From contig WQZG01000010.1 in assembly GCA_009780855.1 (NCBI GenBank), positions 1 through 64,000 of the forward strand: DNA of 64,000 nucleotides, read 5' to 3'. Below the pieces are notes generated by a model. That model searched no databases. It saw nothing but the letters and a program-made list of their open reading frames with translations, and was not told where the DNA came from. The stretch is from Treponema sp. (GTDB lineage: Bacteria > Spirochaetota > Spirochaetia > Treponematales > Breznakiellaceae). The position numbers and the translations under genes are program-made. Numbering within the stretch: the first letter of the stretch is position 1; each line of letters opens with the position of its first letter. Positions 1,738-58,977 of the stretch are shown here, piece after piece.

Positions 1738-1873
1738 ATTGCCCTTCCTTTGAAAAATAATACTATTAAAAGATAATACAATGAATAAAAATAGTATCAT
1801 AAATAATTGATAATTCCATCATCATGGGATATATTTTAAATAGAAGTTTAAAATTTAAGCCTAGGAGGCGCCA

Positions 1874-21863: not shown

Positions 21864-21878
21864 AATACACCGCTGTTA

Positions 21879-41977: not shown

Positions 41978-43003
41978 TCACCCCGCTTCTCCGGTTGATC
42001 CCCGCCTGATAAATTCCAGGCCCAGCTTTACCGAGACAGGCGAGCTGATAATTTTTTCCACGCGCGCGTTAATAATTTCTGCACTGAGATAACCAATGGT
42101 CTTAAAATCTATGCGCGCGGTGGTTAGCGGAGGCTGGGCCGCTGCCGCCTGTGCTATATCATAATAACCCATGACCATAACGTCATCCGGAATTTTTGCG
42201 CCGAGAGTTTTTAACCGTTCCATAAAGCCAAGCGCGATCTGATCGTTGTGGCAGATTACAGCGTCAAAATCTACTTTGCCGTATATTTCGTTGGCTATGT
42301 AATAACCGCCGTCAAAACGCGTGTTATTGGCGAAAAATATCTGCTCTTTGCCTGCCAGTCCGCATTCCTGCAGCCCTTTGACATATCCGGCAACCCTCGC
42401 GTACCTGTAAACATCCTCATCATCTTTTTTAACGCTGTAAATAAAAATTATTTTTTTCCTGCCAAGACCCGCAAGGTATTTGACGTACTGTATGTACATA
42501 CCGTAACTGTCGAACGTAATGTTATCATAGGGAAAATCAGAAAAATCCGGATAAAATTTTGTTGACTCATTGAAAGCGAACACTTCGCCTATCTGCACGA
42601 TATTGTCCGTGATCCTGGCTATCCGATCAAAGATCTTTTTGGGGGTCGAGGCTATAATTATTACCCCGTCCAGGTGTCCGTAATTGTTTATCATTTCATC
42701 TTCGTTCATTTTATCGATCTCGGGGGCGGTGCTGTGGAAGCATTTATAATAAGATAATTCGTGGAACCTGTTGGCCGCGTACTGGATTATGTCCGCGAAA
42801 AACGGCTCTTCCATCTGCTCGTGGTAACTGCCGACCAATATACCGTACTTTTTGGTTTTTATTTTTATGCCGTTCTGGATTGCCAGCGAAATGATCTGCT
42901 GCTTTAATTCGTCGCTTATGGAACGCGTATCGCTGCGGCCCAATACCCGCGAAACCGTTGAAATTGAGGTATTCAGGATTTTGGCGATTTCTTTCTGCTT
43001 CAT
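41978..43003 (-). CDS. LacI-family transcriptional regulator of the glycan locus
   Basis: 341 residues. The N-terminal helix-turn-helix is QKEIAKILNTSISTVSRVLG; the sugar-binding core has typical features (RKKIIFIYSVKKDD, YDIAQAAAAQPPLTTARID). The start MKQKEIAKIL follows GGAGGG and is preferred to an upstream reading. Its own promoter is a perfect TTGACA-17-TATAAT (43041-43069 on the minus strand), and a TTTGGGTAAAGT site lies in its leader. The same site recurs beside the permease and solute-binding protein promoters, so it probably controls all three. Confidence 0.9.
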   Translation of the reverse strand: MKQKEIAKILNTSISTVSRVLGRSDTRSISDELKQQIISLAIQNGIKIKTKKYGILVGSYHEQMEEPFFADIIQYAANRFHELSYYKCFHSTAPEIDKMNEDEMINNYGHLDGVIIIASTPKKIFDRIARITDNIVQIGEVFAFNESTKFYPDFSDFPYDNITFDSYGMYIQYVKYLAGLGRKKIIFIYSVKKDDEDVYRYARVAGYVKGLQECGLAGKEQIFFANNTRFDGGYYIANEIYGKVDFDAVICHNDQIALGFMERLKTLGAKIPDDVMVMGYYDIAQAAAAQPPLTTARIDFKTIGYLSAEIINARVEKIISSPVSVKLGLEFIRRGSTGEAG

Positions 43004-43016
43004 TATCCCTCCAAAA

Positions 43017-43028
43017 TTTGGGTAAAGT
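43017..43028. promoter_or_regulatory. LacI operator candidate O1 (lacI leader)
   Basis: TTTGGGTAAAGT on the plus strand, between the lacI promoter and its ribosome site. It matches the copy at 45086 over 12 of 12 bases. Expected to be autoregulatory. Confidence 0.65.
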
Positions 43029-43040
43029 ATTAATAATTTC

Positions 43041-43069
43041 ATTATATTTGTGCATTATTATTATGTCAA
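43041..43069 (-). promoter_or_regulatory. lacI promoter
   Basis: On the minus strand: TTGACA (43064-43069), 17-bp spacer, TATAAT (43041-43046). A perfect sigma-70 consensus, about 38 bp upstream of the lacI start. Confidence 0.8.
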
Positions 43070-43103
43070 TAGACTTTTTTATTGTAAATTCCTAATATTT
43101 TCG

Positions 43104-43132
43104 TTGACATATTGTTTTTCAGGTATTATTAT
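43104..43132 (+). promoter_or_regulatory. Permease operon promoter
   Basis: TTGACA (43104-43109), 17-bp spacer, TATTAT (43127-43132). The hexamers and spacing are identical to those of the promoter at 45162. Divergent from the lacI promoter; an operator follows at 43139. Confidence 0.8.
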
Positions 43133-43138
43133 TTGGAA

Positions 43139-43150
43139 AATATACCCAAA
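43139..43150. promoter_or_regulatory. LacI operator candidate O2
   Basis: AATATACCCAAA, the inverse of TTTGGGTATATT, placed at about +1 to +15 of the permease promoter, a position where a repressor would block transcription. It is in inverted orientation to O1, 122 bp away. Confidence 0.6.
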
Positions 43151-43176
43151 AATAAAACATAAAACCGGAGTTGAAA

Positions 43177-44106
43177 ATGGTATTATCAAATAAATCTTCT
43201 GTTGAAAAATTTTTGCAGTATATGAAGAACAGCTATGTTTTGTATCTGTTCCTGCTGCCGGCTGTAGCATATATTTTCATTTTTAATTACATACCAATGT
43301 ACGGGGTGCAGATTGCCTTTAAAAATTTTAAAGCCGCACGGGGGATATGGGGCAGTCCGTGGGTCGGGCTGGTAAATTTCCAGAAATTTCTTTCTTCGCC
43401 TGATATATGGAATATTTTGGGGAACACTGTAGGTATAAGCCTGTACTCCCTTATTGTTGGTTTTCCGGTTCCGATAATTCTGGCGCTGATGCTCAACTAC
43501 ATAAGGCCGCTTTCGCTCAAGAAAACAATTCAGACTGTATCGTATGCGCCCTTTTTTATATCAACTGTTGTAATCGCCGGCCTGCTATATCTGTTGTTAT
43601 CACCAAATGCCGGTGTGTTAAATTCCTTCAGAAAATCATTCGGATTGGACTCTGTATTTTTTTTGGCACAGCCAAATTTATTTAAAACTATTTATGTTCT
43701 GGCAAATGTATGGCAGAACGCCGGATGGGGATCCATAATTTATATCGCCGCCCTTTCCGGTGTGAGCCAGGAATTGCACGAGGCCGCTATTTCTGACGGC
43801 GCTACAAAACTGCAGAGAATTTGGCATATCGACCTTCCTTCAATTCAACCAACAATAATAATTCTTTTAATATTGAGAATTGGCCAGATAATGAATGTCG
43901 GTTTTGAAATGACTTACCTGCTGCAGAACCCCATGAACATCAACAGCTCTGAAGTTATTGCTACTTATGTTTATAAAGTAGGCCTGCTCAACATACAGTA
44001 CGGGTATGCTGCCGCAGTCGGCCTGTTTAATAATGTTATCAATTTGGCGTTTCTTGTTTTTGCAAACAGGATTGCAAAAAAAGTCACCGAATCAAGTCTT
44101 TGGTAA
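43177..44106 (+). CDS. ABC sugar permease, LplB type
   Basis: 309 residues. Six membrane helices start near KNSYVLYLFLLPAVAYIFIF. The permease loop contacting the ATPase is HEAAISDGATKLQRIWHIDLP. The start at ATG 43177, 7 bp after GGAG, is preferred to a TTG two codons upstream. LplB-type permeases import oligosaccharides. It is followed by a perfect hairpin and the second permease. No ATPase gene lies nearby, as is often seen when a shared MsmX-like ATPase is used. Confidence 0.92.
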   Translation: MVLSNKSSVEKFLQYMKNSYVLYLFLLPAVAYIFIFNYIPMYGVQIAFKNFKAARGIWGSPWVGLVNFQKFLSSPDIWNILGNTVGISLYSLIVGFPVPIILALMLNYIRPLSLKKTIQTVSYAPFFISTVVIAGLLYLLLSPNAGVLNSFRKSFGLDSVFFLAQPNLFKTIYVLANVWQNAGWGSIIYIAALSGVSQELHEAAISDGATKLQRIWHIDLPSIQPTIIILLILRIGQIMNVGFEMTYLLQNPMNINSSEVIATYVYKVGLLNIQYGYAAAVGLFNNVINLAFLVFANRIAKKVTESSLW

Positions 44107-44115
44107 TTCAAGGTA

Positions 44116-44149
44116 GTCTGTACATAATGTGTCTACATTATGTACAGAC
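44116..44149 (+). promoter_or_regulatory. Perfect 14-bp hairpin between the two permease genes
   Basis: GTCTGTACATAATG and CATTATGTACAGAC form a perfect 14-bp stem with the loop TGTCTA, 9 bp after the first permease stop. No T-run follows, so a terminator is unlikely. It may protect or set the relative level of the mRNA, or be a small mobile scar. Confidence 0.8.
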
Positions 44150-44188
44150 ATTGATTAAAAGGTACAGCCCGGGAAATATGGAGATAAA

Positions 44189-45082
44189 ATGAAAAGAATT
44201 AAGCAGACCGGATCAGACCTGGCATTTGATATTGTAAACACATTTTTATTGATACTTGTATTAATTGTAATAATATATCCGCTGTATGTAGTATTGATTT
44301 CGTCGGTAAGCAGCGCACAGGCTGTTAACGCAGGCGAGGTCAGATTCAGACCAGTTGATTTTAGCTGGCAGGGTTATATTCTGATTCTGCAGGGCAGCGA
44401 CATCTGGATCGGTTACCGGAATACGATTCTCTATACATTCTTTGGAACACTGCTTAATCTTACTGTAACGCTTCTTGCAGGTTATTCACTTTCCAGAAAA
44501 GATTTAAAGGGCCGCGGAATTTTTATGGCCTTCTTTGTTTTTACCATGTATTTCAGCGGGGGACTAATACCGACATATATTCTTGTTAACAAAATTGGCC
44601 TGTATAATACGCCGTATGTACTGATAGTAATTGCGGCCATGAGCGTATACAACCTGATAATTGCCAGAACATTTTTCCAGATGACCATACCCCAGGAACT
44701 GTTGGAATCCGCTTTTATGGACGGATGCGGCAATTTCAAATTTTTTATAAAAATTGTTTTACCCCTATCCAGTGCTCTGGTTGCCGTACTTGCGTTATAT
44801 TACGGTCAGGCCCACTGGAACAATTTTTTTAACGCCCTGATCTACCTGTCCAAACGCACCCTGTACCCGCTGCAGTTATTTTTGCGGAATATCCTTGTAA
44901 TGAACCAGAACATTAACATGGAATCGGGCGCCAGTCCGGAAGAAGTGGAAATAAGACTGCAGTACGCGGAAACGATCAAATACGGACTGATTGTACTGGC
45001 TTCTTTCCCGGTTTTGGTCGTGTACCCGTTTTTACAGAAGTATTTTGTAAAGGGAGTCATGATTGGTTCAATCAAAGGATAA
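44189..45082 (+). CDS. ABC sugar permease, LplC type
   Basis: 297 residues with six membrane helices (FLLILVLIVIIYPLYVVLI first). The EAA-type loop is LLESAFMDGCGNFKFFIKIV. The C-terminal YPFLQKYFVKGVMIGSIKG is the hallmark of this class. GGAG lies 6 bp before ATG. It pairs with the 43177 permease as a heterodimer. Confidence 0.92.
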   Translation: MKRIKQTGSDLAFDIVNTFLLILVLIVIIYPLYVVLISSVSSAQAVNAGEVRFRPVDFSWQGYILILQGSDIWIGYRNTILYTFFGTLLNLTVTLLAGYSLSRKDLKGRGIFMAFFVFTMYFSGGLIPTYILVNKIGLYNTPYVLIVIAAMSVYNLIIARTFFQMTIPQELLESAFMDGCGNFKFFIKIVLPLSSALVAVLALYYGQAHWNNFFNALIYLSKRTLYPLQLFLRNILVMNQNINMESGASPEEVEIRLQYAETIKYGLIVLASFPVLVVYPFLQKYFVKGVMIGSIKG

Positions 45083-45085
45083 AAA

Positions 45086-45097
45086 TTTGGGTAAAGT
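45086..45097. promoter_or_regulatory. LacI operator candidate O3
   Basis: TTTGGGTAAAGT, identical over 12 bases to O1, starting 4 bp after the second permease stop and 65 bp before the -35 at 45162. Confidence 0.65.
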
Positions 45098-45161
45098 TTT
45101 CTATTTTTATAGAATATACTGATTAAATTGATTAATTTATAAAAAATTTTATAAAAAATCG

Positions 45162-45190
45162 TTGACAAATAGATAAATGGATGTTATTAT
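45162..45190 (+). promoter_or_regulatory. Promoter of the solute-binding protein operon
   Basis: TTGACA (45162-45167), 17-bp spacer, TATTAT (45185-45190); same hexamers and spacing as the permease promoter. It would drive the SBP and the downstream enzyme genes independently of the permeases. Confidence 0.8.
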
Positions 45191-45205
45191 AAAGCAATTA
45201 GAAAA

Positions 45206-45217
45206 AGTTTACCCAAA
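45206..45217. promoter_or_regulatory. LacI operator candidate O4
   Basis: AGTTTACCCAAA, inverse orientation to O3 and 120 bp from it, just downstream of the -10 at 45185. With O3 it repeats the geometry of the O1/O2 pair. Confidence 0.65.
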
Positions 45218-45254
45218 TAGTGATTTTAGTTATTTTTCTTCCAGGAGGAATAAA

Positions 45255-46898
45255 ATGAAAAAGAAAGACGTTTTTATTACCCTGACAATTTTACTAACAG
45301 TAATGCTTTTAACTCCGTGTTTCGCAGGCGGAGGCGGACAGGCCAATACGGCAGCTGCGCCTGCTAAAATAGGAGCAGATCCTCTTTTTAATCCGACAGG
45401 CGATGTTTTGGCAAAAGAAAAAGTTACTCTGAATTTTGTAGCCTGCAGGCCGGCTAATTTTAGAAATGGCTGGGCGGACATGCAGGTAATCCAGGATCTG
45501 GAGAAAATTACCAATGTCCATATGAACTGGATCGAAATTGAAGAATCTGCCTGGGCAGAAAAAACAAGACTGATGCTGGCGAGTTCCGATTTACCGGACG
45601 CATTTTACAGCTGGCCTATTGCCGACAACGTTGTCCAGGAATACGGCGAACAGGGAATTCTTGTTCCGCTGGAACCCTATATCGACGCTTATGGGTATAA
45701 TATAACAAAAGCCTTTAAAGAACTGCCGGCATTAAGACCTGCCATGACATATCCTGACGGTCATATTTATGCTTTGCCAATGGCAAACATCGGTGAAAAC
45801 GGCGGTAACTATATCTGGATAAACACTGATTGGCTAAAGCAGACAGGTCTGTCAATGCCAAAAACCACAGAAGATTTTTATAATGTACTTAAGGCTTTCA
45901 AGACCCTGCATCCGGATGTAGCGCCGTTTACTTTTACGCAATATACTCCTGCGGGATTACCGCATCTGCAGCAGGGCGCAAATAATCTATTCGGATCTTT
46001 CGGCGTTGTCTATGATGACAGATATTTAATGTGGCAGAACAATACAGTTATTTTCGCTCCGTCCCAGCCTGGCTATCTTGAAGGGCTAAGGTATTTCAAC
46101 AGGCTGTATAAAGAAGGCCTGATTGATCCGGAATCATTCTCCCAAACCATAGAACAAATGCAAGCCAAAACAAGATCTGATTTAAGCAGGGGCGCTACAG
46201 TAAGCCATATGGCGGATTTCATTGTAGATTTGGGCGGCAGAACCGATACAACAATGGAAGAATACAATGCACTAAGATTCCAGCCCATAGCCCCGCTTAT
46301 TGGGCCAAGCGGCGCAGCCCCGATATGGCGCAAGTATATTTCATTCCCGATTGAAAACACAGGACGTTTCATGATAACCAATATAAACAAGCATCCGGAG
46401 ATCTCAATGCGCTGGGTTGATTACAGCTGCGATAACGACGCGCATGCAAACAATTTAAGACTCGGTCCCCAGGGGCTGTTCTGGGATTATATGAATCCGG
46501 AAAAAACAAAGTTCGGCATGATTTATTCAGATAAAATAAATACGAATTTACAGTATAACCCTGTAAATTATTGTGTCTGGTTCTGGCTGCCAAGTTATAA
46601 CACGAAAAATGTCCGTGTTCCGCAGCAGGAAATGCAGTCAATCAATTACGAGAATCTGGTAAAACCATACGCGATAGATAATGTACCATCGGTGAAATTT
46701 ACATCGGATGAAAATAACACAATGTCAGGAATCCGGGTAGATTTATTTAAATATGTTGCAAGTTCTTTTACCAGTTTCATAATGAATGGCGTAACTGACG
46801 CGCAGTGGAACGATTATCTGGCAAAGCTTAAAACATACGGGAGCGATACCTATACACAAATTTACCAGACCGCGGTAAACAGGTCGTTTGGAAAATAA
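45255..46898 (+). CDS. Extracellular sugar-binding protein of the glycan locus
   Basis: 547 residues, LplA-like. Signal FITLTILLTVMLLTPCFAGG; a Cys at about 20 follows LTP, a poor lipobox, so lipidation is uncertain. SBP segments include LASSDLPDAFYSWPIADNVV and TYPDGHIYALPMANIGENGG. AGGAGG is 6 bp before this ATG, which is preferred to one 26 codons upstream. It captures the substrate for the two permeases. Its stop overlaps the next start by one base (TAATG). Confidence 0.92.
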   Translation: MKKKDVFITLTILLTVMLLTPCFAGGGGQANTAAAPAKIGADPLFNPTGDVLAKEKVTLNFVACRPANFRNGWADMQVIQDLEKITNVHMNWIEIEESAWAEKTRLMLASSDLPDAFYSWPIADNVVQEYGEQGILVPLEPYIDAYGYNITKAFKELPALRPAMTYPDGHIYALPMANIGENGGNYIWINTDWLKQTGLSMPKTTEDFYNVLKAFKTLHPDVAPFTFTQYTPAGLPHLQQGANNLFGSFGVVYDDRYLMWQNNTVIFAPSQPGYLEGLRYFNRLYKEGLIDPESFSQTIEQMQAKTRSDLSRGATVSHMADFIVDLGGRTDTTMEEYNALRFQPIAPLIGPSGAAPIWRKYISFPIENTGRFMITNINKHPEISMRWVDYSCDNDAHANNLRLGPQGLFWDYMNPEKTKFGMIYSDKINTNLQYNPVNYCVWFWLPSYNTKNVRVPQQEMQSINYENLVKPYAIDNVPSVKFTSDENNTMSGIRVDLFKYVASSFTSFIMNGVTDAQWNDYLAKLKTYGSDTYTQIYQTAVNRSFGK

Positions 46899-47959
46899 TG
46901 TCGTACAAAGACGGCTGGGCTGCCTTAAAGCTGGAAATGCCGAATCGCGTACCTCGTATGGAATTTTCATTGAATTATCACCATGCGTTGATAAGTGAAA
47001 TTACCGGGACACAGGTAAACGCGGACAGCCCGCCGGAACTGCTAAAAAAAGTTACATATGAGGCAATGAGAAAATGGAATTATGATCTTATCTGGAGAAC
47101 ACTGATAGGCAGGCTATACTTAAACGGTATTGGCACCAGTATGGGACACGCGACTTTTGCGAATAACGGTTCAGACTTCAGAAATGACAAACATTCCACT
47201 TTTTCCGGCGATTTGGAAGAAGTCTATAATTTCCAGCCATTGGAAAAATTAAAGAACATGAGCCATTCAGAAATGGCGGAAATGTTTTCAAAACATTATG
47301 AAGAAAGCTGCGCCGATTATCCTGACGCTGTTAACATGACAGGCACATACGGCACAATTATATCCGGATTGCTTTTCCTCTTTGGCTGGGATTTGCTGCT
47401 TGAAGCGATGGGTACAGATCCCGTACGTTTTGGTGAACTGACAAACAGGTATGCTCAATGGCTGCAGCCGTATTTTAACGCCATGGCTGATTCAACGGCT
47501 GAATGTATAATGGTTCATGATGATATAGTCTGGAGCGCCGGGCCGTTTGCAAATCCTGCCTGGTACAGGGAATATATTTTCCCGAATTACAAAAAATATA
47601 TCGCACCGCTGCTGGATGCCAAAAAAGTCGTGTTGTATACTTCTGACGGTAATTATTCGGTATTTATTGATGATATAGCGAAAACAGGGTTTATGGGTTT
47701 TGTAATGGAACCCTCAACAGATATGGCGTATATAGCGGAAAAATACGGCCGTACACATTCGTTCATCGGCAATGCCGATACGCGGGTACTTATGTTCGGT
47801 TCAAAGCAGGATATATATAATGAGGTAAAACGCTGCATGGATATAGGCAAAAAATATCCGGGCTTTTTTATGGCGGTAGGCAATCATATTTCACCCAACA
47901 CTCCGGTTGAGAATGCGTTATATTACAATGAAGTTTACGAAAAACTGGGAAAGCGATAG
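46898..47959 (+). CDS. UroD-superfamily protein without the zinc-ligand motif
   Basis: 353 residues. It opens SYKDGWAALKLEMPNRVPRM, a variant of the family start. The barrel is recognisable (ECIMVHDDIVWSAGPFANPA; PNYKKYIAPLLDAKKVVLYT), but where relatives have H-x-C-G it reads YTSDGNYSVF, and the C-terminal loop FMAVGNHISPNTPVENA has no cysteine. It is therefore not a zinc-dependent methyltransferase of MtaA type. Translationally coupled to the SBP gene. Function unknown. Confidence 0.75.
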   Translation: MSYKDGWAALKLEMPNRVPRMEFSLNYHHALISEITGTQVNADSPPELLKKVTYEAMRKWNYDLIWRTLIGRLYLNGIGTSMGHATFANNGSDFRNDKHSTFSGDLEEVYNFQPLEKLKNMSHSEMAEMFSKHYEESCADYPDAVNMTGTYGTIISGLLFLFGWDLLLEAMGTDPVRFGELTNRYAQWLQPYFNAMADSTAECIMVHDDIVWSAGPFANPAWYREYIFPNYKKYIAPLLDAKKVVLYTSDGNYSVFIDDIAKTGFMGFVMEPSTDMAYIAEKYGRTHSFIGNADTRVLMFGSKQDIYNEVKRCMDIGKKYPGFFMAVGNHISPNTPVENALYYNEVYEKLGKR

Positions 47960-47962
47960 ACA

Positions 47963-49972
47963 ATGGATGATTTAAGATACAGACAGATTCATCTGGATTT
48001 TCACACATCAGAATTAATCGAAGGGATCGGTTCAAAGTTCAGCAGGGACCAGTTCCAGGAAATGCTTAAACTCGGACATGTGGATTCAATAGTTTTATAT
48101 TCCAAGTGCCATCACGGCTGGGCCTACCATCCGTCAAAAGCAAACCAAATGCACCCGCATCTGGATTTTGATTTACTCGGCGCGCAAATTGAAGCCGCGC
48201 ATGAGATAAACGTAAAAACACCGGTTTATCTTTCTGTCGGGTTTGACGAAAAATTAACGCGAATGCATCCTGAATGGCTGCGGCGCAATAAAGATGAGAG
48301 CATCCCCCACCACCGCGGGAAAGATTTTTTTTCACCGATCTACCACGAGCTCTGCCTCAATTCACCATATTTGGAAATCATCATAGCACAGATCGAAGAA
48401 GTACTGCGTTTATATGACGCAGACGGTCTGTGGCTGGATATTGCTGGTGAAAAATTTTGTTACTGCCAAAATTGTATAAGGAGTCTCATTGCTGAAGGAA
48501 TTGATCCACGTGATGATGAAGCCGTCAGATTGTATGGCAGAAAAATATTCGCAAATTATGCTGACAAGGTAGATAAAATAATTGAAAAAATAAGGCCTGG
48601 ATTGCCTGTTTACCATAACAACGGCCATATAGCGTGCGGCAGGCGCGATGGGATCGCATCTGACACTCATCTGGACCTGGAGACAATTGCTACAGGCTAT
48701 TTTGGATATGACGGTTTTCCAATGTCCGCATCGTATGTACGTACACTGGGCAAGCAATATGCCGGAATTACCGGGAAGTTTCATTTTGTATGGGGCGATA
48801 ACGGCGGATACAAGCATCCCAACACTCTAAGGTATGAAACGGCGCGGCACCTTGTGTACGGAGCGCGCTGCAGTGTTGGTGATCAGCTTCATCCGTACGC
48901 AGATTTGGACAGGGCAACATACACCCTGATTGGCAGCGCATACGCAGAAATTGAACGCAAGGAAGCATGGTGCCGCGATGCCGTTCACCTGGCTGATGCC
49001 GCAATTCTGTCTGCGGATGCAATTTACAATTGCGGTGAACTCCCGAAAAAACTTAAGGATAAATATACTGCAAAAGCCGATATAGGCGCATTTAAAATAA
49101 TGACTGAAGGCAAATATTTATTTGACATGATCGATCAATGGGCAGATTTTTCTCCGTATAAGTTAATCGTAATGCCTGACTATGTCACAGTCAACAGTCA
49201 ACTCGAAAAAAAACTGCATGATTTTCTGGCAGGCGGCGGCAAACTGCTGGCCTCAGGCTATTCCGGACAAACTCCTGATAGCGGTTATGCGCTTGATTTC
49301 GGCGCTGAAATTCTCGGTGACAATGAATATACGCCGGATTATATACATCCGCTGTTTGAGCTGCCCTGTTTTGAAGATGCGGCTTTTGTTATGTATCTGC
49401 AGGGCCAAAAAATAAAGCTCACTGACGGTAAGGAACTTGCATACCGCGAGAATCCGTTTTTCAACCGCGATGCCTTTCATTTCAGTGCGCATTTCCACAC
49501 CGTAAGCAGCAGGCTGAAAGCCGGGCCGGGAATGGTTCAGGGCAAAGACGGAATTTACATAGCATGGAAAATATTCAGTGAATATGCAGAAAAAGGTTCG
49601 ATGATTTCCAAACTTGTTGTATTGCACGCGCTGGATCTTCTTTTGGGCGATCAAAAAACACTGCGTACATCACTGCCGGTACAAGGTACTGTCGCGCTGA
49701 CTTATCAGAAAAAAGAAAACCGTTATGTGAACCATGTACTATACGGGGCTCCGGTGAAACGCGGCGATATAGGCGTCATCGAAGACAGCTTACCAATTTA
49801 CAATATCAAAATGCGAATATTAATAGATAAACCTGCAAAGAGCGTAAAACTCGTACCGCAGAATATCCCGCTTGAATTTACATGCAATCTAAAAGATTCA
49901 AAATACGAAATTGAATATGTCATACCGGAATTCGAATGTCACCAGATGACAGAGATTACAGCAGCGGGATAG
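47963..49972 (+). CDS. GHL6/GH151-like glycosidase, possible alpha-L-fucosidase
   Basis: 669 residues. The N-terminal barrel (LGHVDSIVLYSKCHHGWAYH, LSVGFDEKLTRMHPEWL, YDADGLWLDIAGEKFCYCQN) resembles the GHL6 family, which includes the GH151 alpha-L-fucosidases. The middle third (KLIVMPDYVTVNSQLEKKL, GGGKLLASGYSG) is a beta-galactosidase-trimerisation-type domain. A C-terminal beta domain follows. A likely catalytic Asp is in GLWLDIAG. No signal peptide. The specificity is not certain. It starts 3 bp after the UroD gene. Confidence 0.7.
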   Translation: MDDLRYRQIHLDFHTSELIEGIGSKFSRDQFQEMLKLGHVDSIVLYSKCHHGWAYHPSKANQMHPHLDFDLLGAQIEAAHEINVKTPVYLSVGFDEKLTRMHPEWLRRNKDESIPHHRGKDFFSPIYHELCLNSPYLEIIIAQIEEVLRLYDADGLWLDIAGEKFCYCQNCIRSLIAEGIDPRDDEAVRLYGRKIFANYADKVDKIIEKIRPGLPVYHNNGHIACGRRDGIASDTHLDLETIATGYFGYDGFPMSASYVRTLGKQYAGITGKFHFVWGDNGGYKHPNTLRYETARHLVYGARCSVGDQLHPYADLDRATYTLIGSAYAEIERKEAWCRDAVHLADAAILSADAIYNCGELPKKLKDKYTAKADIGAFKIMTEGKYLFDMIDQWADFSPYKLIVMPDYVTVNSQLEKKLHDFLAGGGKLLASGYSGQTPDSGYALDFGAEILGDNEYTPDYIHPLFELPCFEDAAFVMYLQGQKIKLTDGKELAYRENPFFNRDAFHFSAHFHTVSSRLKAGPGMVQGKDGIYIAWKIFSEYAEKGSMISKLVVLHALDLLLGDQKTLRTSLPVQGTVALTYQKKENRYVNHVLYGAPVKRGDIGVIEDSLPIYNIKMRILIDKPAKSVKLVPQNIPLEFTCNLKDSKYEIEYVIPEFECHQMTEITAAG

Positions 49973-49980
49973 TTTTACAA

Positions 49981-50994
49981 ATGACCAAACGCGAATATGT
50001 TTTAAGCACAATAAAGCACCGCGAAGGCGACAAAGTACCGTACTGCATACAAATTTCAGAAAAGGCCATAAACCTTTACGGGAATAAATTGCTGCAAGAC
50101 TTTAATAATAAAGAAGTTCAGGACGATCTAAAACAGGGTAATATTAATTATAAAGAAGCAATCAATTTTTCAATCGGCAATTATATGACTTTAATCCCCG
50201 CGCATTGGTGGCAATGGGATTATAAAAATACAAGCCCAATATATAAAGATCCCGAAAGTACACCGGATGTAATGCCCGCAATAATACGCGAAGATACCGC
50301 AGAAAATTTCGAGGAATATAATGAACATACAAAATGGATTGCGGAAAAATATCAAACATATATTGTATCGTTAATTTACGGCAGTCATTTTGAAAAGGCC
50401 AATTTTATAAGGGGTATCGAAAATTTTTTGGCAGACATGGGGAATTCACCGGAGTTCGCAAAAAAATTTTTAACTTTCATCATTGATTTGAATATGGAAA
50501 TACTCCCCAAAATTGTTAAAAATAAATACATAGATGCTGTATTATTGGGAAGCGACTGGGGCACCCAGAATGATCTGATTATGTCGCCGCAAACCTGGAA
50601 TGAATTGATCATGCCCGGCGAAGAAAGGGAATACGCCATTATCAAAGCTGCAGGAAAACATATTATTATCCATTCATGCGGCTGCATACTGCGTATAATT
50701 CCTAATCTGATCGAAATGGGAGTTGATATTTTAAATCCTGTCCAGTCTGAATGTATGGATTTAAATTTATTAAAAGAAACTTACGGCAGTAAATTGACAT
50801 ATTGGGGAGGAATTTCTACCCAAAAGACCCTGCCCTACGGTACGCCGCATGATGTAATCAGGGAAACTGAACAGGTTATTAAATTAATGTCCAGAAACGG
50901 CGGATACATAACATGTCCTTCTCAGGTAATTCAGGAAGATGTGCCTTACGAAAATCTCAAGGCTCTGATTGAAACGGTAAGGCATTACGGTTAA
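49981..50994 (+). CDS. UroD-superfamily protein with intact zinc-site motif
   Basis: 337 residues. It opens TKREYVLSTIKHREGDKVPY. HSCGC is near residue 231 (IIIHSCGCILRIIPNLIEMG), followed by ILNPVQSECMDLN, YWGGISTQKTLPYGTPHDV, and a cysteine in GGYITCPSQVIQED near 311. This arrangement matches an H-x-C ... C zinc site. It is closest in these motifs to the 481-1737 protein. An upstream in-frame ATG at 49936 lies inside the preceding gene and is not used. No strong ribosome site. Confidence 0.8.
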   Translation: MTKREYVLSTIKHREGDKVPYCIQISEKAINLYGNKLLQDFNNKEVQDDLKQGNINYKEAINFSIGNYMTLIPAHWWQWDYKNTSPIYKDPESTPDVMPAIIREDTAENFEEYNEHTKWIAEKYQTYIVSLIYGSHFEKANFIRGIENFLADMGNSPEFAKKFLTFIIDLNMEILPKIVKNKYIDAVLLGSDWGTQNDLIMSPQTWNELIMPGEEREYAIIKAAGKHIIIHSCGCILRIIPNLIEMGVDILNPVQSECMDLNLLKETYGSKLTYWGGISTQKTLPYGTPHDVIRETEQVIKLMSRNGGYITCPSQVIQEDVPYENLKALIETVRHYG

Positions 50995-51015
50995 TTTATT
51001 TATGGAGAGGAGACA

Positions 51016-51987
51016 ATGACTGGCAAAGAAAAAATCATCAGAGCTCTCAAGCATCAGCCGATAAAAGGCCATGTGCCGCATTTTGAATTTCAGTTTTTTT
51101 TAACAATGGAAAAGTTCGGCAAAATTCATCCGCGTTATATTAATCTGCATAAATGGGGCCAGATGAGCGTAAGGGAAAAAGAGATGCAGCTTCAGTATGT
51201 GGCCGATGTTTATCTGGAGACAGCCGGAACCTACGATTATAGTGCAATTTCGGTAAATTTTGATGTTTCCGTTGAAAGCCAAAGCGATAGCAATGATGCG
51301 ATTCACAGGCTGTTTGAAATAATCCGCGAACGTTCCGGAGACCAATATTTTATTATTATCCCGGGAGATGCTACATACGGTATTCCAAACGGCAGCGATA
51401 TGACTGAATTTTCGGCGCACATGTATGATGAACCGGAAAAAATGTGCGAACAGGCGCAGCGCCAGGTTGATCAGAGGCTTGAGGATATCCGCAAATTAAG
51501 GGCAGAAGGCCTTATTGACGGCATCAATCTCAACTCAGATTACTGCTTCAACACCAATTCTTTTTTCCCGCCTGATATCTTCAGTGTTCTTGTTGCTCCG
51601 TATCTAAAGCAGCTGGTTGATGCGTATCACAGCATGGGTTTTTACACAATTAAACACACTGACGGGAACATTATGCCCATTATTGATCAGATAGCTGCCA
51701 GCGGCACTGACGGACTTCAGTCTATCGATCCGCAGGGCGGCGTTGATTTGAAAACTGTAAAAAAATTGTACGGCGATAAATTATGCCTGATGGGCAACGT
51801 TAATTGCGGCCTGCTGCAGACCGGCACCGATGAAGAAGTGCGCCAGGATGTACTGCGATCCCTGCGCGACGGTATGCCCGGTTACGGCTACATTTTCTCC
51901 ACATCGAATGTGGTATATCCGGGAATGCCGCTGCAGCGGTACGAACTGATGCACAGTATCTGGAAAGAACACGGAGTTTATAAATGA
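51016..51987 (+). CDS. UroD-superfamily protein with HTDG in place of HxCG
   Basis: 323 residues, opening TGKEKIIRALKHQPIKGHVP after AGGAG. The metal-site region reads TIKHTDGNIMPIIDQI: His kept, Cys replaced by Asp. The C-terminal loop YIFSTSNVVYPGMPLQRY lacks the cysteine. SIDPQGGVDLKTVKKLYG and KLCLMGNVNCGLLQTGT are the family segments. It may bind another metal or none. Overlaps GH38 by 4 bp. Confidence 0.78.
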   Translation: MTGKEKIIRALKHQPIKGHVPHFEFQFFLTMEKFGKIHPRYINLHKWGQMSVREKEMQLQYVADVYLETAGTYDYSAISVNFDVSVESQSDSNDAIHRLFEIIRERSGDQYFIIIPGDATYGIPNGSDMTEFSAHMYDEPEKMCEQAQRQVDQRLEDIRKLRAEGLIDGINLNSDYCFNTNSFFPPDIFSVLVAPYLKQLVDAYHSMGFYTIKHTDGNIMPIIDQIAASGTDGLQSIDPQGGVDLKTVKKLYGDKLCLMGNVNCGLLQTGTDEEVRQDVLRSLRDGMPGYGYIFSTSNVVYPGMPLQRYELMHSIWKEHGVYK

Positions 51988-54509
51988 ATGACCGGTTAAA
52001 AATATACATGATCGGAAACGCACACATTGATCCGGTTTGGCTTTGGCGCTGGTCCGAGGGAGCGGCGGAAATCAAGGCGACATTCAGATCCGCGCTTGAC
52101 AGGCTGAACGAATTCGATGATTTTATTTTTGCTTCTGCCAGCGCCGCCTATTACGAATGGGTTGAGCAAAATGAACCCGCCATGTTTGAAGAAATTAAAC
52201 AGCGCGTAAAAGAAGGAAGATGGGAATTGACAGGCGGATGGTGGGTGGAGCCGGATCTCAATATTCCGTCCGGAGAATCGTTCGCGCGCCACGCCCTTTA
52301 CGGCCAGCGTTATTTTATGGAAAAATTCGGCAGAACGGCCAAAGTCGCGGGCAATGTGGATTCATTCGGTCAAAACGCGATGCTGCCGCAATTGTTAAAA
52401 AAATCAGGCATGCCTTATTACATTTTTATGCGCGGCGCCAGCAAGCCGGATGAATTCGGCGAGTATCTTTTTACCTGGGAAAGCAGCGACAACAGCCGGA
52501 TAACAACATTCAGACTGGCGACCGGATACGGAGACGGCAAGGGAAATATAGTTAACGAAAAAATTGATCAAAGTCTGGAATACATGAAAAATAAAAATTA
52601 TGATTTCATGTGTCTATACGGTGTCGGAAACCACGGCGGCGGCCCAACCATCACAAATATAAAAAATATCATTAAACGCAGGGAGAAGATGGGTTCTGAT
52701 GCGCTGGACTTCAGCACTTTGGAAAATTATTTCGAGGATGTTGTTTCAAAGGATTATAAACTTCCCGTTATTGCCAACCGGGATTTTCAGCATGAAACAC
52801 CGGGCTGCTATACGGCGCATGTTCAGGTAAAGCTGCTTAACCGTAAAGCCGAACAGCGCCTGCTTACAGCAGAAACTATGTCTGCAATTTCAGCATTGCT
52901 GGTTGGCAGAACAGATCTTGCTGCGGAAAAAAATACAGCCGGACAATTGCGGCAGGCCTGGAAGCGGGTGTTATTTAATCAGTTCCACGATGTAATATGC
53001 GGCTGTTCGATCAAGGAAGCCTACGACGATATTATCGACTGGTACGGTGAAGCCCTTTCGATCGGCGGTGAAGTTCTTAATTCAGCTCTGCAAAAAATTT
53101 CGTGGAATATAAATACCGAAGGGGACAGGCCGGCCAGAAAATGCAAGGAAAAAATCCACCCGGTCATGAACCCGCGGCTTTGGGAAGAAGACGATCGCGG
53201 TATTCCGATGGTTGTTTTCAATCCCCATTCATGGAAAATCACAGCGCCGGTGCAGGTCCGTACCGTAGGCGTTAACTCGGTCAGCGATGACAGAGGTAAT
53301 ATGCTGCCGGTCCAGATAATCAGGGGTTCCCAGTACAACAATGAATTTGACCGCACCCACACGCTTTTTATGGGGACGATTCCGGCTTTTGGATACCGGG
53401 TTTTTTGGCTTTTCCAGAAGGAGCACACCGGTCCGGCAAAAACAAATACGCTCAGGTCTTCCGGACCAAATTCAGTCGAAAACGATTTTTATTCGATCGA
53501 CTTTGATCCAAAAACCGGCAGCCTGAATTACCTGACCGACAAAAGAACCGGAACCAATATTTTTTCAAAAGCGGCCTGCGTTCCTGTTGTCATTGATGAA
53601 AGAACCTCCGATACCTGGGGGCATTATATTTACAGTTACAGAAATGAAATCGGCGCATTCGGCAATGCCGCGGTTTCGGTGATTGAGCAGGGGCCGGTCC
53701 GCGCCTGGATCCGTATTACAAGTTCGTATGACAGATCGGAACTCCGTCAGGATTTTATGTTACACGCTGGATCGGATTTAATTGAGGTCAGGGTAAGGGT
53801 TGACTGGCGTCAGAAAAACCAGATGCTCAAGCTGTCATTTCCCCTTGCCCTTTCTGCGCCCAAAGCGGTTTTTGAAATCCCATACGGAACCATCGAACGG
53901 GAATGTGACGGTGACGAAATGCCGGCTCAGAATTGGGTTGACCTGAGCGGAAAAAACAGCAAAGACGATCCGTACGGAATGACCGTTATTACCGACAGCA
54001 AATACGGTTATGATGTGATGGACAGCGAACTCCGCCTGACTGTTATACGCAGTCCGCTGTTCGCGGAGAACGCCAACATGAGCGATATAAGTTCACGCGA
54101 TGTTCTGGCCGAGCACATGGATCAGGGCGTGCATGAATTCCGTTACTGGCTGCGCCCCCATACCGGGCTTCCTGACACGGCGCAGACTGTAAAGACCGCC
54201 CTTGAATGTAATACAGAACCTGCGGTGATCATCGAATCATATCACAGCGGAAATCTTCCGCTTGTTTACAGCGGCATTAAAGCCGAAGCGGACAATGTTA
54301 CGGTAACCGTATTCAAGCGCGCCGAAGACAACAGCGGTTACATTTTGCGGGCGTATGAGACTGCGGGCACACCGGTAAAAACACAGATTGATCTTCCCCT
54401 GCTTGACCGGCAAATAAATGTGTCATTCGGCAAACATGAAATCAAAACTTTGTTTATTCCCGATGACATTAACGTTCCGGCTGAAGAAAAAAATCTGGTT
54501 GAGTATTAG
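51984..54509 (+). CDS. GH38 alpha-mannosidase of the glycan locus
   Basis: 841 residues. Zinc-site motif NAHID at residues 12-16 and nucleophile Asp at about 126 (GNVDSFGQN); later YGVGNHGGGPT and LFNQFHDVICGCSI. The C-terminal half carries the GH38 beta domains (NSVENDFYSIDFDPKTGSLN). No signal peptide; cytoplasmic. It starts within the end of the preceding UroD gene (ATGA) and is followed 14 bp later by a sulfatase. Confidence 0.92.
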   Translation: MNDRLKIYMIGNAHIDPVWLWRWSEGAAEIKATFRSALDRLNEFDDFIFASASAAYYEWVEQNEPAMFEEIKQRVKEGRWELTGGWWVEPDLNIPSGESFARHALYGQRYFMEKFGRTAKVAGNVDSFGQNAMLPQLLKKSGMPYYIFMRGASKPDEFGEYLFTWESSDNSRITTFRLATGYGDGKGNIVNEKIDQSLEYMKNKNYDFMCLYGVGNHGGGPTITNIKNIIKRREKMGSDALDFSTLENYFEDVVSKDYKLPVIANRDFQHETPGCYTAHVQVKLLNRKAEQRLLTAETMSAISALLVGRTDLAAEKNTAGQLRQAWKRVLFNQFHDVICGCSIKEAYDDIIDWYGEALSIGGEVLNSALQKISWNINTEGDRPARKCKEKIHPVMNPRLWEEDDRGIPMVVFNPHSWKITAPVQVRTVGVNSVSDDRGNMLPVQIIRGSQYNNEFDRTHTLFMGTIPAFGYRVFWLFQKEHTGPAKTNTLRSSGPNSVENDFYSIDFDPKTGSLNYLTDKRTGTNIFSKAACVPVVIDERTSDTWGHYIYSYRNEIGAFGNAAVSVIEQGPVRAWIRITSSYDRSELRQDFMLHAGSDLIEVRVRVDWRQKNQMLKLSFPLALSAPKAVFEIPYGTIERECDGDEMPAQNWVDLSGKNSKDDPYGMTVITDSKYGYDVMDSELRLTVIRSPLFAENANMSDISSRDVLAEHMDQGVHEFRYWLRPHTGLPDTAQTVKTALECNTEPAVIIESYHSGNLPLVYSGIKAEADNVTVTVFKRAEDNSGYILRAYETAGTPVKTQIDLPLLDRQINVSFGKHEIKTLFIPDDINVPAEEKNLVEY

Positions 54510-54523
54510 GAAATAAAAAACAC

Positions 54524-55966
54524 ATGAAACCCAATGTAGTCCTGATAATGGCAGATTCCCTTGCCCCGCAATTGATGGGCTCTTACGGCAGTACCGCAGG
54601 AGCAACGCCCAATCTGGATGCTCTGGCGCAAAACGGGGTAATCTTCGATCGCGCATATTGCAATTCACCGCTGTGTACACCTTCCCGCGCTTCGATGATG
54701 ACAGGCAGATATGTCTCGGAAATCGGCGCTTATGATAATGTAAGTTCGTTTTCTTCGGAAGTCCCCACACTGAATCACGCCTTCAAGCGTGCCGGCTACC
54801 AAACCGTTTTGATCGGCAAAATGCACTTTGGCGGTTATGATCAATACCACGGATTCGATCAGCGGCTGGCCATGGAAACCGATTATTCAACCGGATATAA
54901 CCCATTGCGGCCGCCGTACGACTGGACCTTGCCTTCGGCTCCCAATCCCGGCGGCGGCGCGTGGATGGCTGCAAGTTACGTAAACGATAAAGCCTGGGAC
55001 AACTACACCCATCACTGGGACAGGGACGCCGCGATTCACAAGGAAGCTATTAGGTTTTTCTCGGAAAAAAATGATAACGATCCGCCGTTCTTCTGCTGTG
55101 TATCATACCATCATCCGCACAATCCGTTTTACGCGCCAAAGGAAATCAGGGAGCGGTTCAGAGAAAATAATTTTACACTGCCGTCAGTTCCAAGCGATAT
55201 GAACGATCGTTACGGTATTATGGACAAATGGCTTAACGACTTCCACAGCCAGCCTGAATATTTTGATCGTATAATGGCTGCAGACAATCTGCGGTGGCTT
55301 TATGAAACATACTGCGGAATGGTTTATGATCTGGATTGTCACGCAGGTGAAATTATAAAATTGTTAAAAGCCAAAGGGCTCGATAAAAATACAATAATTG
55401 TTTTTACAAGCGATCACGGAGACATGCTTGGCCACCGCGGGATGGTTCAAAAAAGATGCTTTTACGAATATTCGGTAAGAACGCCGCTGATTTTCTCATA
55501 CCCGGATCATTTTCCTGCCGGACTCCGGGTTAAGCAAACAGTTTCGCTGCTGGATTTGTTCCCAACATTCGCAAGCCTTGCAGGAACTTCCGTACCGCAG
55601 GAACTGCCGGGCATTTCTCTGCTTCCGGAAGCCGCGGCTAAATCGGAAATAAAAAGGCTGCAGGGAATTCCTGACGGCCGGATCGTATTTGCGGAATATC
55701 TGGGAGAAGGCGTCCATGCCCCGTGCTTTATGGCTGTTGCCGGTAATTATAAATATATCCGCGTTCATGGCTTCGAGGAAATGTTCTTTGATTTGGAAAA
55801 TGATCCGGAGGAACTGGAGAATCAGATTGCCAGCCATAAATATTCGGGTATTATCGGCGAATTGAGAAGTTCAGTTCTTAAACAATTCAATCCGGATGCG
55901 ATTGCCGTACAGGCGCTGGAAAACCAGAGAAATAGAAATTATATATTAGAAGCGCATAAAAAATAA
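54524..55966 (+). CDS. Cys-type sulfatase 1
   Basis: 480 residues. CTPSR at about 51-55 (SPLCTPSRASMMTGRY) is the formylglycine signature in its Cys form, which in anaerobes is matured by a radical-SAM enzyme of the AtsB type. Further motifs are KMHFGGYDQYHGFDQRL and IIVFTSDHGDMLGHRGM. No signal peptide is present, so desulfation would be in the cytoplasm. No maturase gene is in the window. Substrate is presumably a sugar sulfate from the imported glycan. Confidence 0.92.
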   Translation: MKPNVVLIMADSLAPQLMGSYGSTAGATPNLDALAQNGVIFDRAYCNSPLCTPSRASMMTGRYVSEIGAYDNVSSFSSEVPTLNHAFKRAGYQTVLIGKMHFGGYDQYHGFDQRLAMETDYSTGYNPLRPPYDWTLPSAPNPGGGAWMAASYVNDKAWDNYTHHWDRDAAIHKEAIRFFSEKNDNDPPFFCCVSYHHPHNPFYAPKEIRERFRENNFTLPSVPSDMNDRYGIMDKWLNDFHSQPEYFDRIMAADNLRWLYETYCGMVYDLDCHAGEIIKLLKAKGLDKNTIIVFTSDHGDMLGHRGMVQKRCFYEYSVRTPLIFSYPDHFPAGLRVKQTVSLLDLFPTFASLAGTSVPQELPGISLLPEAAAKSEIKRLQGIPDGRIVFAEYLGEGVHAPCFMAVAGNYKYIRVHGFEEMFFDLENDPEELENQIASHKYSGIIGELRSSVLKQFNPDAIAVQALENQRNRNYILEAHKK

Positions 55967-55988
55967 TTAAGCTCAAAAGGAGCCATTC

Positions 55989-57485
55989 ATGAAAGACCGT
56001 CCAGATAAAGACCGTCCCAATATTCTTCTTATAATGTGCGATCAGCTTTGCGCTTCGGTTCTGGAAGCCTACGGCGGAAATGCCGATACTCCCAACATAA
56101 ACAAGCTTGCCCAAAACGGCGTTTTGTTCAGCGGGGCATATTGTCAGACACCGATCTGTTCTCCGTCCAGGGCATCCATTATAACCGGATTGTACCCGCA
56201 CAGGCACGGAATTGTTTCCAATGTAATGCGTGTTGATTACCCCATTGTAGGCGGCCCAGCAACCGAAGAAGGAATTGACGGCCGCGATACAACTACCGAA
56301 GGATTGTTGAACAACAATGGTTACAATACCGTACACTGGGGCAAATGGCATATCTGTGGAACAAGGCTTGATTGCTATAAAGAGATGTACACGGAGAATC
56401 ATGAATATACAGCCGAGATAAAGGAAACATTTGAACGTGTTGAAAAGGGCCCCAGGGAAAAATATATGGAATGGTATGGCTGGAGGATTCCTGTCACTGT
56501 AGATCCGGAATACGCCAGATGCACAGCGGATATTCCTTTCCATTGGGATCAAAACCGCAGATTCATTGACTTTATTAAAAAGGCCGGCCGGCTCGATCTG
56601 CCTGCCGAAGATACCTTTGATTACAGGACCTGTTCAAGAAGCGTTGAAACAATTAAAAACATCAGCGAACCGTTTATGCTGACCTGTTCATTTAACATGC
56701 CCCATGATCCAAATGCAGCTCCGTCTCCCTATTACGAGAACGTAAACTTGCAGAACATTCACGCTGACGCGGGGCTTCCCTGCGATGCAGCATATGTCAA
56801 TGATATGTCCAGGGATTTTTCGGCGCACTTCGGCAATGTATATCTGCGGGAGAACCTGCGCACTTACTATGCGGCAATAAAATTGATTGACGATCAGATC
56901 GGGCGTTTATTGTCGGCATTGCGCGAACGCGGCATTGCGGAAAACACCGCCGTAATTTTTATTGCGGATCACGGCGATATGGCAGGCGGTCACGGAATGT
57001 TCTGGAAGTCAACAAGGGCATTCTATGATGAAGTAGCACGCGTTCCCATGATAATTTCGGCGCCCGGGTTCGGAAAAGGAAAACATTATGAAAATCCGGT
57101 TGAACTGGTTGACCTGATGCCGACAATTCTGGAGCTGTGCGGACAAAAAATACCGGCGGGAATTGACGGGGAAAGCCTCGTACCTGCCCTGGAAGGCAGC
57201 CGGTTAAAAAAAGATACGGCGATATGCGAACGCCTGAATTTTGACGCGGATCATAAACGCCGTCCACACACCAATGACAAGAACCATAATTTTATGCTGC
57301 GGGCAGGGGATTTAAAATACATAATTCATTTTAATGAAAGGGAAGATATCCGGATCCTGTATGATTTGAAAAAAGATCCAAATGAATATGTTAATGTTTA
57401 TGCTGATCCCCGATATTCATCGGAGGCTGCCGGAATACATGAAATGCTTGTGAAACGGCTTGCAAAAAGCGGGTTTTTGTTATAA
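55989..57485 (+). CDS. Cys-type sulfatase 2
   Basis: 498 residues. CSPSR at about 57-61 (QTPICSPSRASIITGLYPHR) is the formylglycine site. The metal-binding start is NILLIMCDQL, and the C-terminal DHG motif is VIFIADHGDMAGGHGMFWKS. No signal peptide. It differs clearly from sulfatase 1, so the two probably act on different positions or sugars. AGGAG lies 7 bp before ATG. Confidence 0.92.
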   Translation: MKDRPDKDRPNILLIMCDQLCASVLEAYGGNADTPNINKLAQNGVLFSGAYCQTPICSPSRASIITGLYPHRHGIVSNVMRVDYPIVGGPATEEGIDGRDTTTEGLLNNNGYNTVHWGKWHICGTRLDCYKEMYTENHEYTAEIKETFERVEKGPREKYMEWYGWRIPVTVDPEYARCTADIPFHWDQNRRFIDFIKKAGRLDLPAEDTFDYRTCSRSVETIKNISEPFMLTCSFNMPHDPNAAPSPYYENVNLQNIHADAGLPCDAAYVNDMSRDFSAHFGNVYLRENLRTYYAAIKLIDDQIGRLLSALRERGIAENTAVIFIADHGDMAGGHGMFWKSTRAFYDEVARVPMIISAPGFGKGKHYENPVELVDLMPTILELCGQKIPAGIDGESLVPALEGSRLKKDTAICERLNFDADHKRRPHTNDKNHNFMLRAGDLKYIIHFNEREDIRILYDLKKDPNEYVNVYADPRYSSEAAGIHEMLVKRLAKSGFLL

Positions 57486-57528: not shown

Positions 57529-58977
57529 ATGTCATTCAAAATTGCGGTAATCGGAGCGGGCAGCATAGGTTTTACAAGAAAGCTATTTTCAGATCTGATG
57601 ACGGTTCCCGAGTTCAGGAACATTGAAGTTGCTTTTACAGACATTAATCAAAACAACCTGGACATGGTCACACAATTATGCCAGCGCGACCTTGACGCTA
57701 ATAATGTAAAAATAAAAATACACAAGACATTAAACCGGCGCGAAGCATTCACAAACGCCAAATATATAATCAACTGTGTGCGGATCGGGATGCTGGAAGC
57801 ATTTACCAAAGACGTCGAAGTACCGCTTAAATACGGCATCGACCAGTGCGTCGGCGATACGCTGTGTGCGGGCGGCATTATGTATGGCCAGCGCGGGATC
57901 GCGGCCATCCGCGACTTCTGTAAAGACATCAGGGAAGTTTCACAGCCCAGCGCGCTGATGCTCAATTACGCGAATCCCAACGCGATGATGACATGGGCTG
58001 CCAACAAGTATTTTGGCGTCAATACAATCGGACTCTGCCACGGAGTCCAGGGCGGACACGGAATGCTGGCAACTGTGCTTGGTGTGCCGCAGAACGAACT
58101 GGATATAATCTGTGCGGGAATCAACCACCAGACCTGGTATATCTCTGTCAAGCATAAAGGCGTTGAACTGAAGGACAAAATTTATGATGCGTTCCTGCGC
58201 AATCCCGAGATAATGAAAACCGAGAAAGTACGCATAGATATAATCAAGCGTTTTGGATATTTTTCTACTGAATCGAACGGCCATCTTTCCGAATATCTTT
58301 CCTGGTACCGCAAGCGGCCGGAAGAAATAAAAGACTGGATCTCCCTGGATACATGGATCAACGGTGAAACCTGCGGATATCTGCGGCACTGCTCCGAACG
58401 CCGCAACTGGTTTGAGACCGACTTCCCCAGCTGGCTGCGGGAACCGCCGGAAAAATACGAAGCCTCGAACCGCAGCAATGAACACGGTTCCTATATTATC
58501 GAGGGCCTTGAAACCGGCCGCCGTTACCGCGGTCATTTCAATGTAATCAACAACGGCTCCATCTCCAATCTGCCGGACGACTGCGTTGTCGAAGTCCCCG
58601 GTTACGTTGACGGTAACGGCGTCAGTATACCGCATGTCGGCGATCTGCCCCTCGGCTGCGCTGCCATCTGTTCGCAGAGCATCTGGGTTCAGAAGCTCGC
58701 TGTCGAAGCGGCGGTTCACGGTGACGACAACCTGCTGCGTCAGGCAATGTTAATGGACCCGCTGACAGGAGCGGTACTCAACCCGCCTGAAGTCTGGCAG
58801 CTCGTTGACGAGATGCTCATTGAGGAAGAACAGTGGCTGCCCCAGTATAAGGACGCTATCGCTGCTGCCAAAGCACGTATGGCAAAGGGCAATTTATTGC
58901 CGGTAAAAAATTATAAAGGCGCGGCGCGGCTTCCGTGGAAAACTGCCGAAGAACTGGCAAAAAGCAACAGCAAATAG
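57529..58977 (+). CDS. GH4 family NAD-dependent glycosidase
   Basis: 482 residues. The NAD site is KIAVIGAGSIGFTRKLFSDL. Cys170 and His171 (GLCHGVQGGHG) and His200 (GINHQTWY) are expected Mn-binding residues. The C-H-G triad is of the type seen in GH4 alpha-glucosidases or alpha-glucuronidases and differs from the C-H-S of MelA alpha-galactosidases. So an alpha-linked glucoside, galactoside or uronide is possible. GGAGG lies 7 bp before ATG. It is the last gene of the locus. Confidence 0.88.
   Translation: MSFKIAVIGAGSIGFTRKLFSDLMTVPEFRNIEVAFTDINQNNLDMVTQLCQRDLDANNVKIKIHKTLNRREAFTNAKYIINCVRIGMLEAFTKDVEVPLKYGIDQCVGDTLCAGGIMYGQRGIAAIRDFCKDIREVSQPSALMLNYANPNAMMTWAANKYFGVNTIGLCHGVQGGHGMLATVLGVPQNELDIICAGINHQTWYISVKHKGVELKDKIYDAFLRNPEIMKTEKVRIDIIKRFGYFSTESNGHLSEYLSWYRKRPEEIKDWISLDTWINGETCGYLRHCSERRNWFETDFPSWLREPPEKYEASNRSNEHGSYIIEGLETGRRYRGHFNVINNGSISNLPDDCVVEVPGYVDGNGVSIPHVGDLPLGCAAICSQSIWVQKLAVEAAVHGDDNLLRQAMLMDPLTGAVLNPPEVWQLVDEMLIEEEQWLPQYKDAIAAAKARMAKGNLLPVKNYKGAARLPWKTAEELAKSNSK

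Follow-up and report, generated by a model that had tools for sequence, protein, structure and literature searches.

What do five proteins of the uroporphyrinogen decarboxylase (UroD) superfamily do on one spirochete contig, when three of them are encoded within a single run of glycan genes? The stretch that raises this question, called the window here, consists of the first 64,000 nucleotides of contig WQZG01000010.1 of a Treponema sp. (assembly GCA_009780855.1), and the genome is a 3.97-Mb draft metagenome-assembled genome (MAG) that is 96% complete with 6% contamination. The reading favored here, with a probability of roughly 0.52, is that the window UroDs are substrate-specific corrinoid-dependent methyltransferases (MT1s) that would O-demethylate sugars and share one B12 protein. 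Corrinoid-dependent methyl transfer of some kind is considered highly probable, and O-methyl sugars stand at about even odds as the main substrate class. A wider proposal, an anaerobic B12 route in which dozens of UroD methyltransferases, each with its own glycan locus and substrate, would all supply methyl to a single shared corrinoid protein, is held tentatively and falls somewhat short of even odds.

The five genes are as follows.

481..1800, minus strand: UroD-superfamily protein, HCCG type (PF01208; nearest paralogue C174_1191, 41%)
20676..21863, minus strand: UroD-superfamily protein, HTCG type (PF01208, E 3e-17), beside a glycoside hydrolase family 38 (GH38) gene, an apiosidase-like glycosidase gene, and a lipoprotein gene
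46898..47959, plus strand: UroD-superfamily protein, TSDG type, putative MT1 (PF01208, E 1.6e-24)
49936..50994 (start at 49936 or 49981), plus strand: UroD-superfamily protein, HSCG type, putative MT1 (PF01208, E 4.6e-19)
51016..51987, plus strand: UroD-superfamily protein, HTDG type, divergent within a family found in many phyla (PF01208; relatives and their contexts)

A sequence-only reading had placed five UroD genes in the window, three of them in a glycan locus, and the open reading frames, the PF01208 matches (E-values of 4e-18 to 2e-24, except for 3e-17 in the 20676 protein), and the neighboring genes were all recovered as it described. No Pfam family besides PF01208 was matched by any of the five proteins.

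Corrinoid and glycan genes around UroD genes

Profile searches detected no corrinoid-domain gene in the window, as had been noted from the letters, and none on the whole contig. Genome-wide, PF01208 had 45 matches in 44 genes, one gene being matched in two pieces, and exactly one protein matched PF02607, the same protein also matching PF02310. This MtaC/MtbC-like corrinoid protein of 211 residues is encoded on contig C1, carries the motif DLHDIGKN, and scored 211.5 bits against TIGR02370 (cut-off, 215.3). The sole RACo/RamA-type reactivase (PF14574) of the genome is encoded just downstream of it, and a single methyl-tetrahydrofolate:corrinoid methyltransferase (MT2) was found at C19:43437 (325 bits versus a curated cut-off of 259). 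Contig C1 contains no UroD gene. The genome therefore has an O-demethylase chassis, composed of corrinoid protein, activator, and MT2, without a dedicated adjoining MT1 of the UroD or MTTB families, MtaB-type enzymes not having been searched for, and this makes the UroDs the obvious MT1 candidates. Service of the single corrinoid protein to an MTTB-type enzyme is unsupported, since the genome has no PF06253 match. As a side observation, MetH was not detected, because the only PF02607 domain sits in the small corrinoid protein; unless the draft misses MetH, methionine must come from another enzyme or from uptake.

The number of UroDs was associated with the reactivase across 59 genomes, namely, this one and 58 relatives. 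PF14574 was present in all 15 genomes with at least five UroDs versus 12 of the 44 with fewer (Fisher p 4e-7, uncorrected for shared ancestry; p 4e-4 among genomes at least 90% complete), and the association held both inside and outside the family. Some of the reactivases counted were of a long type of about 650 residues.

Relatives of the 51016 protein, ranked by their similarity to that protein itself, were sought in 84,980 species genomes; 338 stretches encoding relatives were found, of which 80 loci were kept and 73 were readable. They come from Lachnospiraceae, Oscillospiraceae, Lentisphaerae, Akkermansiaceae, Chloroflexi, Hydrogenedentes, Armatimonadetes, Omnitrophota, and Treponema. In the 73 loci, no more than three genes from the relative, a reactivase was encoded in 6 cases, a corrinoid protein in 4 (10 loci with one or the other), GH38 in 10, and another UroD in 23. 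When genes up to three places away were compared with those four to nine places away, the counts were 10 versus 1 for a corrinoid protein or reactivase (p 0.004), 11 versus 1 for GH38 (p 0.002), and 32 versus 10 for UroDs (p 0.0002); Pfam confirmed all four corrinoid proteins and three of the six reactivases. Corrinoid genes, both beside the relatives and elsewhere in the Treponema genome studied here, make O-demethylation the likely class of reaction, in agreement with one of the two roles that the sequence-only reading had offered.

The clearest case is a Lachnospiraceae locus, L142, in which a UroD (10001-10972), a corrinoid protein (11037-11678), and a GH38 protein (11936-14347) are encoded on one strand. 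In L078, L100, L113, and L122, loci that may have a common origin, a C69-type UroD gene is followed by a reactivase gene and then a 51016-type UroD gene, and L138 has the same order with a UroD of the C29_11339 type in first place. The Blautia locus L074 repeats a distinctive part of the window's gene set, bringing together a GHL6 protein (47%), a 46898-type UroD (46%), and a 51016-type UroD (57%). A small CPPGCG-containing protein, possibly an accessory of these systems, is encoded beside the reactivase or corrinoid protein at L100:7799-8332, L122:7818-8354, L138:6839-7435, and L079:14369-14887; the L100 copy is DUF2284 by Pfam, and the other three are alike by eye. No claim is made that 49981-type and 51016-type genes form a conserved tandem pair, as no such pair was seen on related Treponema contigs and a 49981-like neighbor was present in few of the distant loci. 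The same-genome paralogue of 51016, C50, is preceded by a truncated UroD, which within this genome matches 49981 best (33%).

Glycan genes formed the other recurrent surroundings. Among the 190 genes within three positions of the genome's UroDs were 15 sulfatases and 18 ATP-binding cassette (ABC) permeases, with GH38, GH2, GH43, and melibiase-type genes also occurring; 97 control genes included 0 sulfatases and 9 permeases. The 15 UroD-adjoining sulfatases, out of 77 in the genome, amount to nearly four times chance (p about 1e-5). Glycan genes beside relatives in other genomes had been named as a touchstone of the proposal, and the neighborhood survey found them, so that the setting expected of a sugar O-demethylase occurs both here and elsewhere. 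Separately, about 77 sulfatase genes in a 4-Mb genome, many of them clustered (e.g., on contigs C31 and C34), represent an unusually large sulfated-glycan repertoire for the spirochete phylum.

Zinc-ligand columns and predicted fold

The motifs HCCG, HTCG, TSDG, HSCG, and HTDG had been read in the 481, 20676, 46898, 49981, and 51016 proteins, respectively, and these letters are correct. In the alignment, MtaA has an H-x-C motif plus the Cys in APGCGIAPMTP. The third ligand column, counted back from the conserved Pro, holds H, D, N, Q, and N in the same five proteins; none of the five has a Cys there, and 46898 and 51016 have none at the second column either. A third cysteine had also been assigned to 20676 (GDQC) and 49981 (ITCPSQ), but these residues lie off the MtaA column, which holds D and Q in the two proteins, and the assignment does not stand. 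Only C29_11339 among the genome's UroDs has all three MtaA ligands (His-Cys-Cys). The S-methyltransferases of the superfamily use His-Cys-Cys, whereas O-methyltransferases swap one or both Cys for Asp or Glu or for nonligands (PMC10418091), and CdmB, a UroD-superfamily MT1, has no zinc (PMC13222342). The gradient of zinc motifs thus does not indicate a loss of function and fits nonthiol substrates.

The HTDG and TSDG proteins had been taken for partners without a metal site. This is not supported: O-methyltransferases of the superfamily as a rule swap out Cys or, like CdmB, do without zinc, and H-x-D is invariant in the 51016 family (H214 and D216, predicted ligands only, in 72 of 72 relatives, some of which adjoin corrinoid genes). 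The idea may still hold for the 51016 copy itself: this copy departs from 15 of 86 family-invariant positions (e.g., H75Y, H116P, C173N, H235Q, and C299V), compared with a mean of 0.46 and a maximum of 5 in other members and with one in C50. Sampling does not explain the oddity, because the relatives were ranked by similarity to 51016 itself. Judged by these substitutions, the 51016 copy may have a changed substrate or may be a repurposed, degenerate, or noncatalytic partner subunit.

Searched singly against PDB sequences, neither 49981 nor 51016 gave a match, and a profile was needed. AlphaFold2 models of 49981 (predicted local distance difference test score [pLDDT], 87.7) and 51016 (pLDDT, 95.3) had MtaA as their best PDB matches by E-value (4ay7 at 1.3e-12 and 4ay8 at 4.3e-13, respectively); HemE was close behind for both and ranked above MtaA in TM-score for 51016. 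HemE shares the Pfam family and the barrel, and the Pfam name is all that speaks for the window UroDs being HemE enzymes or recent HemE copies. None of the 44 UroD genes reached the HemE cut-off (TIGR01464, 303 bits), the best score being 66 bits for a gene outside the window, and in a tree with HemE, MtaA, CmuA, and CdmB references, whose deep branches were weak, the two HemE rows formed their own clade with no protein of this genome inside. Clustering with HemE had been named as a result that would count against the sugar proposal; scores and tree alike place the UroDs outside HemE, and a HemE identity was rejected with next to no probability left to it.

Rival functions and known systems

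In the favored reading, a sulfated, O-methylated glycan would be imported, desulfated, and cleaved by the products of the operon at 43171-58977. One or more of the three operon UroDs would bind an O-methyl sugar and pass its methyl group to Co(I) of the common corrinoid protein, from which MT2 would hand it to tetrahydrofolate; the ATP-dependent reactivase would bring the corrinoid back to Co(I) after accidental oxidation. The unusual part would be the many-to-one layout, with about 44 UroDs to one unlinked corrinoid protein, for which a common docking surface is predicted.

Several points weigh against this. Gene sets, folds, genomic links, and co-occurrence are what the analysis observed; UroD methyl transfer, an O-methyl sugar substrate, and the sharing of one corrinoid protein are inferred. 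No corrinoid gene lies in the window, the window UroDs do not reach the NCBIfam cut-offs for MtaA and CmuA (TIGR01463 and NF040654; at most 77.5 bits versus 235 for TIGR01463), and the predicted fold indicates membership in the UroD/MtaA barrel superfamily without choosing between methyl transfer and decarboxylation. ABC permeases were about as common in the controls as beside UroDs, and some UroDs, including 481, have no glycan neighbor, so that not all need act on sugars. The co-occurrence with the reactivase is uncorrected for phylogeny, the MT1 search took in the UroD and MTTB families and not MtaB-type MT1s, and the genome is a MAG with contamination.

Three other functions were weighed. 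The UroDs could be corrinoid methyltransferases for methoxylated aromatics, such as lignin-type phenolics freed with plant glycans, as are MtvB, OdmB, and VdmB; the characterized O-demethylases of the superfamily do act on methoxylated aromatics (PMC13222342), and the window's family counts among its members Treponema MAGs whose sample codes suggest a termite gut as habitat. Against this, GH38, GH4, sulfatases, and GHL6 recur as neighbors, and not aromatic-pathway genes, for which no search was made, and the genome's 77 sulfatases indicate sulfated glycans. Aromatics appear unlikely. A non-methyl reaction on sugars, for instance, decarboxylation, isomerization, or a binding role, independent of corrinoid, would suit an operon without a corrinoid gene and a fold shared with the decarboxylase HemE, which scored close behind MtaA. 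It is slightly less probable again, given that in several phyla a corrinoid protein or reactivase is encoded right next to a 51016 relative and that UroD number tracks the reactivase. The methyl donor could also be something else (methyl-thiols, methylamines, methyl esters, or methanol), with the glycan genes incidental; superfamily members with S-methyl and halomethyl substrates exist (PMC10418091 and PMC13222342), and the UroDs without glycan neighbors would fit. Against such donors stand the confinement of the His-Cys-Cys set of S-methyltransferases to C29_11339 and GH38 and sulfatase links above those of the controls, and they are the least likely of the three.

Among known systems, those of CdmB and of the aromatic O-demethylases MtvB, OdmB, and VdmB resemble the favored O-demethylation system in their parts, namely, a UroD-superfamily MT1, a stand-alone corrinoid protein, a methyl-tetrahydrofolate:corrinoid MT2, and a RACo/RamA-type activator, and CdmB likewise lacks the zinc site. 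In those systems the genes for MT1, corrinoid protein, and MT2 usually form a cluster, and aromatics or chloromethane are the substrates, whereas this genome has a single unlinked corrinoid protein for some 44 UroDs, of which many belong to glycan loci. The soluble coenzyme M methyltransferases MtaA, MtbA, and MtsA and the mlp gene clusters share the fold, but these enzymes have their own His-Cys-Cys zinc and transfer to thiols (PMC10418091). CmuA, another UroD-superfamily methyltransferase, has 29% identity to the 20676 protein over half its length, but its corrinoid domain is part of the same polypeptide and its substrate is chloromethane. The P450 6-O-methyl-galactose demethylases of marine bacteria would share the outcome, removal of a sugar O-methyl group in a polysaccharide-utilization locus, but they are unrelated, O2-dependent enzymes that produce formaldehyde (PMC10033563), in contrast to the anaerobic methyl transfer proposed here.

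The known route of sugar demethylation requires such a P450 monooxygenase (PMC10033563), and a 2025 paper stated that anaerobic demethylation of methylated galactose had not been elucidated (PMC12316285). No paper assigning UroD proteins to sugar demethylation was found in the open-license literature, a scope outside which most subscription journals fall. Corrinoid methyltransferases of the superfamily are already known for aromatics, thiols, and halomethanes; a role on sugars would be new. If the sugar reading is true, it would supply an anaerobic counterpart of the P450 sugar demethylases, connect one-carbon metabolism with methyl groups from plant or host glycans, and assign a function to the many proteins now labeled only “uroporphyrinogen decarboxylase family.” The enzyme family, the common cofactor protein, and testable gene clusters would all be named, some of the clusters in culturable-type gut Firmicutes such as Blautia.

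Operon layout and other window features

The operon consists of eleven plus-strand genes with intergenic gaps of -37 to 94 bp, in the order two ABC permeases, solute-binding protein, UroD, GHL6, UroD, UroD, GH38, two sulfatases, and GH4. Its members other than the UroDs, together with the divergent regulator, are as follows.

41978..43042, minus strand: LacI-type regulator, divergent from the operon (NCBIfam LacI-family matches)
43171..46898, plus strand: two ABC permeases and a solute-binding protein (PF00528, PF13416)
47963..49972, plus strand: GHL6 glycosidase-like protein between UroD genes (PF14871, E 2.7e-29; 47% to the Blautia L074 protein)
51984..54509, plus strand: GH38 alpha-mannosidase-type glycosidase (PF01074, PF07748)
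54524..57485, plus strand: two sulfatases (PF00884, PF16347)
57529..58977, plus strand: GH4 glycosidase, end of the run (PF02056, PF11975)

The GH38 gene overlaps the 51016 UroD gene by 4 bp. The 46898 protein has 52% identity to its own-genome paralogue C29_25864, which likewise neighbors LacI, ABC transporter, GH38, and sulfatase genes. Both strands of the gap between the LacI-type gene and the operon (43042-43171) carry promoter-like sequences close to the consensus, TTGACA-17-TATAAT and TTGACA-17-TATTAT, which are consensus matches only.

Outside the operon, the 481 gene has no glycan neighbor within the window, and the lipoprotein encoded beside the 20676 gene resembles solute-binding proteins. 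The small glycan cassette at 16085-23582, comprising the apiosidase-like glycosidase, GH38, UroD, and lipoprotein genes, lies amid blocks of flagellar genes, as if inserted.

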